Assembly (NCBI GenBank): GCA_035533075.1
Contig: DATLUO010000283.1
Location: forward strand, 1 to 35,502
Origin: Pirellulales bacterium
GTDB taxonomy: Bacteria > Planctomycetota > Planctomycetia > Pirellulales > JAICIG01
DNA length: 35,502 nucleotides
Reading direction: 5' to 3'
Shown: in pieces, positions 16,661 to 21,874 of the stretch
Layout of the letters: the number at the start of each line of letters is the position of its first letter
How positions within the stretch are numbered: the stretch's first letter is position 1
The notes under the pieces: model-generated
What the model was told of the DNA's origin: nothing
The model's database searches: none
Seen by the model: the letters and a program-made list of their open reading frames with translations, nothing else
Program-made: the position numbers and the translations under genes

Positions 16661-18097
16661 TCAGCTTAATGGCGCCAGCGACGTGACGGCCTGTTGCAAG
16701 AGACCCGTCAAGAACGGCGGCAGGCTGATGCCGAACCAGAGGACGAACAGCATCAGCCCCACGATCGGCGCGCCGGTAGAAAAACCGTCGGGAAACGAGG
16801 CCTCCGTGCGGGGGCGCGAGGGTTCGCCCAACACCACGCTAAGCACCGTCGCCCCCATGCCCACAAAGACCACCAGCAACGCCGCCAGGAAGATCGCCGC
16901 TCCGGCGTAGTGGCCGCTCGAAAAGGCCGCGCTGACGATGGTGAACTCGCTGGCGAAGGGGCTGAAGGGCGGCGAGCCGCAGCTCGCCAGGAAGCCAAAA
17001 AAGAACAGCGGCCCGGAAAGCGGCAGGGCCCGCATCGCCCCCCGCACGTCGTCGGTCAGCTTGCTGCCGTAGGCCCGATGGATGTTGCCGGCCGAAAGGA
17101 ACAAGACGCCCTTGGTCATGGCGTTGTTGAACACGTGCAGCAGCGTGCCATATAAGGCGGCGCTGCCACCGATGCCGAGCCCGAACACCAGGATGCCCAT
17201 GTGCTCCACGCTGGAGTAGGCCAGCAAGCGTTTGAAGTCGCGCTGCCGCACCATGAACACGGCGGCGGTGACCATCGACAAGAGGCCCATGAAGATCATG
17301 GTTTGCGAGGCGAACGCCTTCTCGCCGCCCGCCACCACGATCTGATAGACGCGCAAGACGGCGAAAAAGACGCAGCTCGTCACGCCGCCGGCCATCAAGG
17401 CCCCGATCATGCCCGGCGCTTCGCCGTAGGCGTCGGGCTTCCAGGTGTGCATCGGCGAGAGGCCCATTTTGGTGCCGTAGCCGACCAAGAGCAGAACGAA
17501 GGCGGCGTGCAGCCAGGGACGCGAGAGGTCGGGCGCGTGCCGCAGCAGGTCGTCGAACGCCAGCGAGGGGTGCAAGCCGGCGTGGAACGCCGAGTAGGCC
17601 AGAAACAGCGTTCCCAACAGGGCCAGGGCAATCCCCACCGAGCAAATCAGCAGATACTTCCAGGTCGCTTCGAGCGAGCGGACGTTGTGATTGAAGTAGA
17701 GGCTGGGGGCGGTGACCAGCGTGGTCGCTTCGACCGCCACCCACATCAGCCCCAGGTGGTGAGAAAGGACGACCAGCGTCATCATCGACAGCGCCAACAG
17801 CATGCACGTGCAAAGCACGCGGTTCGGCCGCTCGGGCCGCAACGCCAAATAGCCCGGTGCATAGAGCATCGAGAGGAAGTGCAGCAGGCTGACGGCCAGC
17901 AAGACGATCTTCCCGGCCGCATCGAGCGCCAGCCAATCGCCGGGCTGCGACTCGACCGTCGCCCGCACGGCGTTGACGACCAGCGTCAGGTGCAACCCGG
18001 AGCCGAGCGGCAACACCCAGGGCCGCCAGCGGTCGGAAGGCGTCAAGGCCGCCAGCGCGGCCGCGGCGGCGGGAATGATGATCAGGTCACCGAGCAC
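16661..18097 (-). CDS. Proton-pumping antiporter-like subunit, HyfF/NuoN type
   Basis: A 478-aa integral membrane protein of the proton_antipo_M family (NuoL/M/N, HyfF, MrpA/D), with about 14 hydrophobic segments. Conserved parts are LMWVAVEATTLVTAPSLYF (with the key glutamate of transmembrane helix 5), GYGTKMGLSPMHTWKPDAY (with the conserved lysine), the FKRLLAYSSVEHMGIL segment and the MTKGVLFLSAG helix. In hydrogenase-4-type complexes HyfF is one of the ion-translocating subunits. The GTG at 18097 is chosen because AAGGAG lies 7 nt upstream; the GTG at 18103, which overlaps the previous stop as GTGA, has the same site only 1 nt away. It is the last gene of the operon; no hydrogenase large-subunit gene follows. 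Confidence 0.88.
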   Translation of the reverse strand: MLGDLIIIPAAAAALAALTPSDRWRPWVLPLGSGLHLTLVVNAVRATVESQPGDWLALDAAGKIVLLAVSLLHFLSMLYAPGYLALRPERPNRVLCTCMLLALSMMTLVVLSHHLGLMWVAVEATTLVTAPSLYFNHNVRSLEATWKYLLICSVGIALALLGTLFLAYSAFHAGLHPSLAFDDLLRHAPDLSRPWLHAAFVLLLVGYGTKMGLSPMHTWKPDAYGEAPGMIGALMAGGVTSCVFFAVLRVYQIVVAGGEKAFASQTMIFMGLLSMVTAAVFMVRQRDFKRLLAYSSVEHMGILVFGLGIGGSAALYGTLLHVFNNAMTKGVLFLSAGNIHRAYGSKLTDDVRGAMRALPLSGPLFFFGFLASCGSPPFSPFASEFTIVSAAFSSGHYAGAAIFLAALLVVFVGMGATVLSVVLGEPSRPRTEASFPDGFSTGAPIVGLMLFVLWFGISLPPFLTGLLQQAVTSLAPLS

Positions 18098-18099
18098 GC

Positions 18100-18732
18100 T
18101 CACTCCTTCAATGCCGATAGGTGCTGCACGCCCACCGGATCGAGCGCCCGGTTGATGTGCTGGATGATGATGCCCATCACAAACACCGCCACAAACAGGT
18201 CGAGCAGCACGCCGGCCTCGACCATCGCCGGCACGGCTTCGACCAAGAGCAGGCCGAACACGAACACGCCGTTTTCCAGCACCAGATAGGCCAGCGTCTG
18301 GCCGATGGTGCGGACGCGCGTCACGAGCATCAAAAAACCCGTGAAGAGCGTGGCCAGCGAGGCGGGCACCACAAGCTGGGTCGGACCGCTCTCGCGCAAG
18401 GGGAGCGTGTGCGAGATCCAGATGGCCAGTCCCGTGCCCGCGGCGCCGAGCAAGAGCGACGTGATGAACCCGCCCAGCGGACGGATTTCAGGTCCGATGG
18501 TCACGTCGCGCATGGCGTAAAACAGCAGTCTGGGAATGACGATTCCTTTGACGACCACGGTGATGCTGGCCAACAAGGCCGTCTGCAGCGTGTGCTCGAC
18601 CCAGAGCGGCGCCATCCCCAGCACCACCCCCTGCACCGCCACCAGATAGAGCACGGTGCGCACGCGGCCGGCGCCGAGAATGAAGAAGTTCAACAGCAGC
18701 ACGATTTCCAGCAGACTGGTCAACGATAACAT
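18100..18732 (-). CDS. Hydrogenase-4 component E-like membrane subunit (HyfE type)
   Basis: A 210-aa membrane protein with about six to seven hydrophobic helices: LLEIVLLLNFFILGAG, LYLVAVQGVVLGMAPLWV, ASITVVVKGIVIPRLLFYAM, PLGGFITSLLLGAAGTGLAI, VVPASLATLFTGFLMLV, LENGVFVFGLLLVEAVP and LLDLFVAVFVMGIII. The pattern QGVVLG, VVKGIVIPRLL, AYLVLENGVFVFGL and LDLFVAVFVMGIIIxHI is characteristic of HyfE, which corresponds to NuoK plus a linker segment in complex I. It has ATG 18732 as start, 3 nt after the HyfC-like stop, and overlaps the HyfF-like gene. No catalytic activity of its own is expected. Confidence 0.87.
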   Translation of the reverse strand: MLSLTSLLEIVLLLNFFILGAGRVRTVLYLVAVQGVVLGMAPLWVEHTLQTALLASITVVVKGIVIPRLLFYAMRDVTIGPEIRPLGGFITSLLLGAAGTGLAIWISHTLPLRESGPTQLVVPASLATLFTGFLMLVTRVRTIGQTLAYLVLENGVFVFGLLLVEAVPAMVEAGVLLDLFVAVFVMGIIIQHINRALDPVGVQHLSALKE

Positions 18733-18735
18733 AGA

Positions 18736-19650
18736 TCAACTCGGTACAAGCACGATGCCCAAACCCGACAGCACGCAGGCGGTAACCAGCAACCGAGGGA
18801 TCTCGGTCATGCGCAAACGGGCCATCGTCGATTCGATCACGCCGATCAGGCCGGCCGTCAACAACACCTCGGCGATGAACAACAGCCAGTCGAACGGGGG
18901 AATGCCCGTGTGAAACGGCAGCAAGATCTGCACGATCATGGCACAGAACAGGAACAGCTTGATCGACGCGCCGTAGAGGATCATGCCCAGCGCGGGGCCG
19001 CTGTGGTCGAGCACCATGACCTCATGGATCATGGTCAGCTCCAGGTGCGTGTTGGGATCGTCAAACGGGATGCGCGAGTTTTCGGCCAAGAGTACGATGA
19101 ACCAGCTCACCAGCACCAGCACCAGCGAGGCCCCGCCGTGCTGCCACTCGACGAGAATGGCGTCGCCGAGCATGTTCGACAGCCGCAGCGAATGCGACAG
19201 GCGGGCCGTCACCAACAGTCCGAAGAAGAGCGCCGGCTCGGCCAGGCAGGCGAAGGTGAGCTCGCGCGTGGTGCCCATGCCCTCGAACGACGAGCCGGTG
19301 TCGAGCGCGGCGAGCGAGAGGAAAAACCGGGAGAGCGCAAACAGATAGACAAATAGGATGGCGTCGCCCCGGAATGACACGGGCGAGTTTTCCGGTCCAA
19401 AGGGTATCAACAGCGCCGCCACCAGCGCCGCCGCCAGGCTCACCACGGGGCCGATGCGAAAGACCAGCGTGGTCGTGGTGCTGAAGACCGAGCCTTTTTG
19501 CACCAGCTTGATCAGATCGTAGTACGGTTGCAGCAGCGGCGGTCCCACGCGGCCTGCAAACCACGCCTTGGTCCTGATGATCACCCCGCGCAACAGCGGC
19601 GGCAACGCCAAGACCATGACGACGTGAACGAAGACCTCGATCGGACGCAC
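18736..19650 (-). CDS. Hydrogenase-4 component C / NuoH-like membrane subunit (HyfC type)
   Basis: A 304-aa membrane protein of the NuoH/HyfC/EchB family with about eight hydrophobic helices. Diagnostic parts are RTKAWFAGRVGPPLLQPYYD near residue 26-45, where the family has the KxxGRxGP loop, and IPFDDPNTHLELTMIHEVMV (about 205-224) with conserved acidic residues. This subunit anchors the soluble electron-transfer arm to the membrane in complex I and in energy-converting hydrogenases. The GTG at 19650 has GAGG 7 nt upstream, and the gene begins 9 nt after the HyfB-like stop. The soluble arm it should contact has no gene in the window. Confidence 0.9.
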   Translation of the reverse strand: MRPIEVFVHVVMVLALPPLLRGVIIRTKAWFAGRVGPPLLQPYYDLIKLVQKGSVFSTTTTLVFRIGPVVSLAAALVAALLIPFGPENSPVSFRGDAILFVYLFALSRFFLSLAALDTGSSFEGMGTTRELTFACLAEPALFFGLLVTARLSHSLRLSNMLGDAILVEWQHGGASLVLVLVSWFIVLLAENSRIPFDDPNTHLELTMIHEVMVLDHSGPALGMILYGASIKLFLFCAMIVQILLPFHTGIPPFDWLLFIAEVLLTAGLIGVIESTMARLRMTEIPRLLVTACVLSGLGIVLVPS

Positions 19651-19659
19651 TTGAAAACC

Positions 19660-21681
19660 TCAATAGGGCCAGACGAGCAGCAGCACCAGAATGGCCAGGA
19701 TGTAAAACAGATAGGCTTGCAGGCTCCCCTGCTGGAACACGCGAAAAAACAGCACGCGGCCGCCCATCCACCGCATGGCCGGCAGCACGATGCGCTGCAA
19801 TATGCTGTCGGGCGCCTCGCTGCGATACGCCGCCGCCTGGGGAAAAAGCTCGCGGATGGTGGGCGCGCTGACGTTGGGCCGCACAGCCCAACGAAACAAC
19901 GACACCAGCACTTCGCTGAACGAGGTCGACGTGTATTGCATCCGCGGCGTGGGGGCCAGGTATCCGCAGCCCCAGGTCACGGAAGTCGAGGTCAGCTCGG
20001 GGCGGAGCCGCGTCCAGAGGGCCACGCCGCCCACCAAGCACAGCCCGACGAGCAAAAAGCCGAGCATGCTCAACCAGAAGAACGCATCTCGCCCTTCCGC
20101 ACGCGTGAATTGGGCCAGCGACATCGGGCCGCTGGCCATGGCCACGCCATCCGCCGACGCCGAGGTCCACTCGACAATCGCCCGGTCGAGCGCCGGCACG
20201 ACCAGGCCGGGCAAAAGGCCGATCGTCACGCACGCCAGGCCCAGCAGGACCATTGGCCCAAGCATCACCGCGCCCGATTCGTGGGCCTCGCCGGCGTACA
20301 CGCTGCGCGGCGTCCCTAGAAACATGGCGCCAAACGCCATCGCATAGCAGGCCACCGCCATCGCTCCGATCAACGCCAGGCCCGGCGCCGCCAGCGACGC
20401 CCCCAGCAAGGTCTGCGTCTCGGAGACCTGCGATCCAATGCCCAGCATCGAGAACAGCCCGGTATAGATCAAAAACTCGCTCACAAAACCGTTCAGCGGC
20501 GGCAGTCCGCAAACCGCGACCGCCGCGATCAGAAAGCACGCGGCGGTCGCCGGCATACGCTTGGCCAGACCGCCCAACCGATTGATTTCGCGAGTGTGCG
20601 TGCCGTGCATCACGGAGCCCGCGCAGAAAAACAACAGCGACTTGAACAGCGAATGGTTCCACACGTGCCATAGCGCTCCGCCCAGACCGAGGGCCACCCA
20701 CTCGGCCCGGCCCATCGACCGGCCGAGCAAGGCCACGCCCAGGCCGATGAAGATGATGCCCATGTTCTCCACGCTGCTATAGGCCAACAGCCGCTTGAAG
20801 TCTTGTTGTGCGACGCCGATCGCCAGCGCTACCACCCCGGAGACGACCCCCAGCGCCAACAGCAATCCGCCCCACCAGATCGGCGGCTGCGGCAAAAACG
20901 AATAGACGCGGACCAGGCCGTAGACGCCCATCTTGATGAGCACGCCCGACATCAATGCCGACACATGACTGGGCGCATTGGCATGGGCCCCCGGCAGCCA
21001 GACGTGCAACGGCATGATGCCGGTCTTGAATCCGAAACCGACCAGCGCCAGCAGAAAGACCACGGTGGCCTGCGTCGCGGAACAATCGAGTTGTCGCGGC
21101 CAATCGAATGAACCGCTCAACGCCCGCAGCAGCCCGAACAAGCCAAACAGCATCAGCGTGCCGGTGTGCGTGGCCACCAGGTAGATCCACGCCGTCTCGC
21201 GCACGGCCGGCTTGTCGTCTTCGGTGGCCACCAGCACGAACGCGCTGAGCGCCATCACCTCCCAGCCCATCAGGAAAACGACGCTGTTCCGGGCAACGAC
21301 CAGCAGCGCCATGCCGGCCGCGCACAGTCCGTAGAACAGGCGAAGTCTGCGGCCGGTATCGGGATTTTCGCTCTGCCGCCAATAACCCTGGCCATAGATC
21401 GGCCCGAGCAGCGAAATCATGAAGACCGGCAACAGGAAAATGGCGGAGACGCCGTCGAGCCCGATATGGAAATCGGCGCCGGGCACCAACGGCCACGACC
21501 GCTGCCATTCTTGGCCGCTTCCGGCAGTGTACCATTTGCCCACGGCGGCGAAACCGGCGACGGCGCCGCCCGCCGCAATGGCCGTCGACAGCCACTGCCC
21601 CAATTCGCTCCGTCGGCCGAACAGCAAGCCAACGACGCCACTGAGCGCCAGCGCACCGATCGACCCGATCAACAACTCCAT
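19660..21681 (-). CDS. Hydrogenase-4 component B-like proton-pumping subunit (HyfB type)
   Basis: A 673-aa membrane protein of the NuoL/NuoM/HyfB family, of the usual HyfB length. Signatures are NSVVFLMGWEVMALSAFVLV with the conserved helix-5 glutamate, GFGFKTGIMPLHVWLPGAHA with the essential lysine, SALMSGVLIKMGVYGLVRV, FKRLLAYSSVENMGIIFIG and HSLFKSLLFFCAGSVMH. The C-terminal CGYLAPTPRMQYTSTSFSE segment is characteristic of HyfB rather than NuoL. It is the first gene of a four-gene operon (B, C, E, F order). The ATG at 21681 gives MELLIGS; a GTG at 21693 would add four residues, and neither has a strong ribosome binding site. Regulation is not evident; the gene upstream is divergent, 193 nt away. 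Confidence 0.9.
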   Translation of the reverse strand: MELLIGSIGALALSGVVGLLFGRRSELGQWLSTAIAAGGAVAGFAAVGKWYTAGSGQEWQRSWPLVPGADFHIGLDGVSAIFLLPVFMISLLGPIYGQGYWRQSENPDTGRRLRLFYGLCAAGMALLVVARNSVVFLMGWEVMALSAFVLVATEDDKPAVRETAWIYLVATHTGTLMLFGLFGLLRALSGSFDWPRQLDCSATQATVVFLLALVGFGFKTGIMPLHVWLPGAHANAPSHVSALMSGVLIKMGVYGLVRVYSFLPQPPIWWGGLLLALGVVSGVVALAIGVAQQDFKRLLAYSSVENMGIIFIGLGVALLGRSMGRAEWVALGLGGALWHVWNHSLFKSLLFFCAGSVMHGTHTREINRLGGLAKRMPATAACFLIAAVAVCGLPPLNGFVSEFLIYTGLFSMLGIGSQVSETQTLLGASLAAPGLALIGAMAVACYAMAFGAMFLGTPRSVYAGEAHESGAVMLGPMVLLGLACVTIGLLPGLVVPALDRAIVEWTSASADGVAMASGPMSLAQFTRAEGRDAFFWLSMLGFLLVGLCLVGGVALWTRLRPELTSTSVTWGCGYLAPTPRMQYTSTSFSEVLVSLFRWAVRPNVSAPTIRELFPQAAAYRSEAPDSILQRIVLPAMRWMGGRVLFFRVFQQGSLQAYLFYILAILVLLLVWPY

Positions 21682-21874
21682 ACCGAACACCACCCAGCGT
21701 CAACAGCAATGTCCCATAAGCTATCGTTCCGCCGTCCGGGTCACAACGGCTTTTTGGGCGGATCCGCAAAAAGTTGGTAGACAAAGTGTGCGGAAACGCC
21801 CTGCGCTTCGATTGTTTCCCGCCCGTCGTCATGTTAGCCTGATAGTCGTTCCAACACCCCGTGAGGCACTGTCT

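Follow-up and report, generated by a model that had tools for sequence, protein, structure and literature searches.

The window, that is the whole 35.5-kb contig C283 of a draft Pirellulales genome, carries four genes (hyfB, hyfC, hyfE and hyfF) which very probably encode the complete membrane arm of an Ehr complex (Ech-hydrogenase-related, or energy-converting hydrogenase-related), the catalytic arm having its genes at another locus, for which the regulator-HyfG-HyfI unit of contig C264 is the likeliest candidate. Direct support comes from gene content, co-occurrence, a conserved operon, losses and retentions of residues, and incongruent trees. What stands out is the rare arrangement of the genes, the complex itself being a known one; there is also side evidence for module exchange.

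The four genes form one tight operon on the minus strand (16661-21681; Table 1), with junctions of 9 nt between B and C and 3 nt between C and E, and a 4-nt overlap between E and F. Family scans and coordinates bear out the order and spacing described by an earlier, sequence-only reading, and all four genes are confirmed as genuine family members. HyfB and HyfF match the NCBIfam models of hydrogenase 4 subunits B (548 bits, 2.5e-164) and F (321 bits, 1.4e-95), and HyfC gives a profile match to subunit 4 of the formate hydrogenlyase FHL (7z0s_D, 8.3e-46). The HyfB reading frame extends upstream to a GTG at 21693; the ATG start was taken. The set of NuoL-, NuoH-, HyfE- and NuoN/M-like subunits that characterizes the Ehr membrane arm is present.

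Table 1. Location of the window genes and of other features mentioned in the text
Feature	Location	Strand	Description
HyfB	19660..21681	-	HyfB/EhrA-like, NuoL/Mrp-antiporter-like membrane subunit; 673 aa from ATG; PF00361 1.2e-54
HyfC	18736..19650	-	NuoH/HycD-like docking subunit; 304 aa; PF00146 1.7e-38
HyfE	18100..18732	-	HyfE/EhrC-like membrane subunit; 210 aa; NCBIfam hydrogenase 4 membrane subunit 2.2e-18, 67 bits
HyfF	16661..18103	-	NuoN/NuoM-like antiporter subunit; 480 aa; PF00361 4.6e-42
Palindromic repeat	window:31355-31393		GGTGGGCCGGCGCTCGCAAGCTCGCTGGTCCCACC
Palindromic repeat	L031:1-1136		sites between and beyond HyfG and HyfI of C264
Regulator	L031:2677-3381		helix-turn-helix and PTS-IIA domains
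Regulator	L032:10006-10710		helix-turn-helix and PTS-IIA domains
HyfI of G001	L086:7750-8508		complete operon, window's family
Extra NuoL-like gene	L107:6040-8040		beside the operon
HyfI-like sequence	G044:C301:7894-8557		in two frames

The flanks are, as had been noted, unrelated or divergent. Downstream lie a 166-aa ORF without family assignment and a TPR protein; upstream, divergent PSD1 and DUF1501 genes, typical of planctomycetes. No catalytic gene adjoins the operon, a point already made from the sequence that now holds for C283 as a whole, all matches to PF00346, PF01058, PF00374 and PF00329 in genome-wide searches falling on other contigs. Since more than 13 kb separate the operon from either contig end, an assembly break beside it does not explain the missing genes. 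A search for sigma-70-like promoters near the operon gave none, a result little informative in this genome, where 1.1 would be expected by chance.

The draft genome (296 contigs, 99% complete, 2.7% contamination) was searched as a whole with the profiles PF00346, PF01058, PF00374, PF00329, PF00146 and PF00361. It contains two membrane arms, the one of the window and a second BCEF set on C163, both unlinked to any catalytic gene; two HyfG-like subunits, on C264 and C175; and two HyfI-like subunits, on C264 and C13. Arms, HyfG and HyfI thus stand at 2:2:2, and the Ehr genes are spread over at least four contigs. The sequence-only reading had proposed such a search for catalytic proteins, and its suggestion that the catalytic arm may lie elsewhere is supported by the outcome. 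Both HyfI proteins carry PF01058 and a fused 2x[4Fe-4S] domain, as expected for the FeS-bearing small subunit of Ehr complexes. In C264 HyfI follows HyfG, its N-terminus is the ferredoxin-like domain, and all 12 cysteines are kept; the C13 gene overlaps a bioD-like gene.

Both HyfG genes lie directly behind a gene for a 234-aa protein with helix-turn-helix and PTS-IIA domains (Table 1). The regulator runs straight into HyfG in C264 and C175 alike, leaving no space for BCEF. In C264 the stop codon of the regulator overlaps the start of HyfG (ATGA), so that the layout without BCEF looks settled, rather than the product of a recent deletion. This PtsN-like regulator leads the operon in most relatives, and in split operons it stays with HyfG and not with BCEF. 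A SulP transporter gene stands ahead of it in C264, L149, L152 and L168. C264 ends 187 bp past HyfI, near a dispersed repeat. Within 200 kb of sequence from this genome there are 33 copies, often paired, of a palindromic repeat of 39-41 bp; copies reside around HyfG and HyfI of C264, at contig ends and in the window (Table 1). The repeat looks like a REP element, and could be the cause of the assembly breaks.

Other candidate partners were discarded. The NiFe hydrogenase of C4 has its nearest kin among soluble group 3b sulfhydrogenases. The small subunits encoded on C33 and C138, and the 49-kDa subunits on C138 and C273, match complex I and not the Ehr-type family. Complex I genes reside on C138 and on C273/C216, and each of the two copies has its own NuoH (C138, C273).

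The best match of HyfG among solved structures is FHL subunit 5. Residues Ala212, Thr215 and Ser502 of HyfG align to three of the Ni-binding cysteines of the latter, the fourth lying beyond the printed alignment, and the full set of four cysteine ligands to NiFe that marks hydrogenase-4 (group 4a NiFe) is not there. A CxxC motif in the L1 region is absent in all 83 aligned sequences, nearly all of which feature the loop GDT[TS] at this place; the C-terminus CNKSFNLSYCG[HF]DL is nearly invariant, CNKSFNLSYCGHDL being conserved C-terminally. Ile164 and Gly213 of HyfG align to His38 and Tyr87 of Thermus Nqo4, which belong to the quinone site. As HyfG lacks both the CxxC of the NiFe site and the two quinone-site residues of complex I, the complex is, judged by these positions, of the Ehr type and not a hydrogenase-4. 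The label Hyf-type given to the operon on first reading fits the membrane subunits, which match hydrogenase-4 families; it does not fit the large subunit.

Ehr complexes are kin of group 4 hydrogenases devoid of NiFe ligands (PMC6349859, PMC10284858), and the Ehr locus of Geobacter sulfurreducens is GSU0739-45 (PMC7894505). The set analyzed shares with the latter the four types of membrane subunits, a large subunit without NiFe ligands and a small subunit, and loci of the Geobacter group, about 60% identical in HyfC, are among the close matches; it differs in that the genes are split over several contigs. All Ehr subunits are usually found in one gene cluster, which is a matter of gene organisation and not a defining biochemical trait. 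Hydrogenase-4 and FHL (group 4a [NiFe]; Hyf, 7z0s) have the same membrane subunits in the same order, but feature the CxxC in the large subunit, and the ferredoxin subunit is here fused to HyfI. Complex I (NADH:quinone oxidoreductase) belongs to the same superfamily, HyfG matching its 49-kDa and 30-kDa families; the set analyzed, however, has no NADH module, and complex I genes are separately present in this genome. Nothing relevant was found in the literature on Ehr or Hyf genes in planctomycetes. Orphan "hydrogenase-4" genes of this kind should be read neither as hydrogenases nor as antiporters in genome annotation.

Seven of 57 relatives have HyfC, and these seven, spread over five families, are also the only ones with HyfG (E < 1e-190), which all of them have; treating the genomes as independent, which they are not, puts the chance of such a match at 1 in 2.6e8. 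Among 216 genomes of the phylum, 27 contain both HyfC and HyfG. Two genomes, both incomplete (59% and 85%), have HyfC without HyfG, and one has HyfG without HyfC. The canonical operon of the relatives is regulator-B-C-E-F-G-I. It is found in full in G001, which belongs to the family of the window, in G049 and in G029; in G033 only its start is missing, where the contig ends. Eighty named loci were compared, from Planctomycetota, Geobacter relatives, Verrucomicrobiota, Acidobacteriota and other groups; HyfG belongs to the operon in 75, and four of the remaining five are cut off by a contig end less than 250 bp from F. Of the 30 other arms sampled across the phylum, 26 share a contig with HyfG, which lies about 2–4 kb from HyfC; the four arms without HyfG on the same contig come from genomes at most 85% complete. 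Comparison of the operon boundary, which had been advised, places G and I directly after F in most relatives.

The only conserved neighbour found frequently in a survey of 88 loci for substrate-indicating genes was an extra NuoL-like gene (38 loci; the next cluster occurred in 10). In these 38 loci three antiporter-like subunits would be formed, versus two in the window arm, in which a single NuoL-like subunit precedes C. In L152, from an Omnitrophota genome, SulP, regulator, B and C are followed by unrelated genes, no E, F, G or I being found in the next 9 kb. The HyfI-like sequence of G044 is distributed over two frames, HyfC was not found there at E 1e-10, and the sequence is perhaps a remnant.

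The window arm is intact. Among alignment columns with 95% or more conservation across some 80 linked arms, HyfB keeps 83 of 88, HyfC 78 of 80, HyfE 32 of 35 and HyfF 79 of 82. Every conserved Lys, Arg, Asp, Glu, His, Tyr and Cys is kept, none being replaced. The HyfC interface, another point singled out for comparison, includes both cytoplasmic docking loops, which are kept and presumably face the catalytic arm as in FHL and complex I. The other unlinked arms compared are similarly intact. Nothing in these sequences suggests a release of the window arm from a redox partner.

Trees indicate which catalytic genes may belong to which arm. The BCEF set of the window is sister to that of G028 (support 100/99), a genome in which the operon reads G-I-B-C-E-F, and HyfI of C264 is sister to HyfI of G028 (97/94). 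The BCEF set of C163 is sister to that of the Rhodopirellula locus L095 (100/100); the C175 regulator pairs with the L095 regulator (99/97, L095 having a long branch in that tree) and the C175 HyfG with the L095 HyfG (81/95). The grouping of the HyfG proteins of C264 and G028 falls outside the best HyfG tree, yet is not rejected (p 0.26). The sister pairs suggest two sets, one made up by the window and C264, the other by C163, C175 and C13; the HyfG tree alone leaves the pairing undecided. What the sequence-only reading had named as counter-evidence to an arm without catalytic subunits is essentially there: of the hyfG and hyfI loci elsewhere in the genome one is tied to the window arm, by trees and not by biochemical proof, and most orthologous operons have G and I after F.

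The ancestral arrangement would be a regulator-B-C-E-F-G-I operon, split in the lineage of the window, with BCEF as one movable cassette. Two genomes of a single genus, G029 and G051, are informative on this point. They share a locus of the type PSD1-DUF1501-regulator-...-G-I-enolase-like gene, 67–80% identical at the DNA level in aligned pieces. The regulator is directly followed by G in G051 (L094, C237); BCEF is found between regulator and G in G029 (L088, C48). The BCEF genes of the G029 operon group with Phycisphaerae-type arms, as judged by branch support (99/97). Grouping with the Phycisphaerae type is, by contrast, rejected for HyfG (AU test, p 1.3e-4) and for the regulator (p 0.005), p values which are somewhat optimistic, the clades having been picked after the trees were seen. 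The different ancestries of BCEF and of G and regulator imply that BCEF moved as a block, at least once to a place beside a G of different descent. The split probably arose by such movement of BCEF as a cassette. The unlinked BCEF arms of G029 and G051 are mutual sisters (100/100). In G051 two BCEF arms (L092 and L093) are 96–98% identical in B, C and F, and reside on different contigs with different flanks, either because the arm was duplicated recently or because of faulty binning. That complex I and its kin are put together from redox and ion-pump modules is a standard evolutionary hypothesis; here the modules appear genetically separate in one lineage, and in another they have been joined to partners of foreign origin. 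A single chromosomal site, known with the insert and, from a relative, without it, provides a natural test of docking specificity between arms.

G029 and G051 have two or more membrane arms but one HyfG-HyfI pair each, so that at least one arm there must either use a catalytic arm in common with another or function without any, and the same could occur in the window's genome. Arms without partner would be Mrp-like multi-subunit ion/proton antiporters, a role consistent with the placing of B and F in the Mrp/NuoL family, with the unlinked position of the window arm, and with the one arm in excess of HyfG in the two genomes. For the window arm such a role is very improbable, given the perfect co-occurrence of HyfC and HyfG in the 57 relatives, near-perfect in the 216 genomes, the direct adjacency of the sister arm of G028 to G and I, and the retention of docking loops and conserved charged residues; moreover, Mrp Na+/H+ antiporters are not known to have a NuoH-like subunit, which is here present and intact. 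The plain ion transporter considered in the sequence-only reading is accordingly not supported. There is somewhat more, though still little, to be said for a pool in which membrane and catalytic arms (even the peripheral arm of complex I) mix without dedicated partners. Arms do look exchangeable over evolution, the G029 operon joining a Phycisphaerae-type BCEF to a HyfG of other ancestry and a native regulator, and arm and HyfG numbers are unequal in G029 and G051; in the window's genome, however, numbers are equal, trees pair the sets consistently, and each complex I copy is provided with its own NuoH.

It is hardly credible that the isolation of the window arm results from mis-binning, contamination or misassembly. 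The genome is a draft in 296 contigs with 2.7% contamination, and C264 does end beside a dispersed repeat, but the window arm is embedded far from contig ends between unrelated genes, no room for BCEF is left between regulator and HyfG in C264 and C175, and the same split is independently found in G051. A bolder proposal, doubtful though less so than the preceding ones, is that several BCEF cassettes and regulator-HyfG-HyfI units, at separate loci and swapped between planctomycete lineages, assemble in multiple combinations per cell.

In the preferred reading, an Ehr complex of the window arm and the C264 unit, the two arms would assemble from unlinked loci and would pump ions. By homology, electrons would first reach the pair of [4Fe-4S] clusters in the ferredoxin-like domain of HyfI, and pass through its terminal N2-type [4Fe-4S] cluster to HyfG, the redox site of which would be neither a NiFe centre nor the quinone head-group site of complex I. 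The redox change would be relayed via HyfC to B and F, the subunits that would translocate H+ or Na+. The four cysteines of the terminal cluster are kept in 71 of 73 HyfI sequences. The exceptions, in the complete operons of L086 and of L110 (a Planctomycetales MAG), are sisters (98/97), and feature Ser/Ser/Glu/Trp and Asn/Glu/Glu/Trp at these positions. Both retain the eight cysteines of the ferredoxin domain, and may represent an Ehr variant without N2-type cluster.
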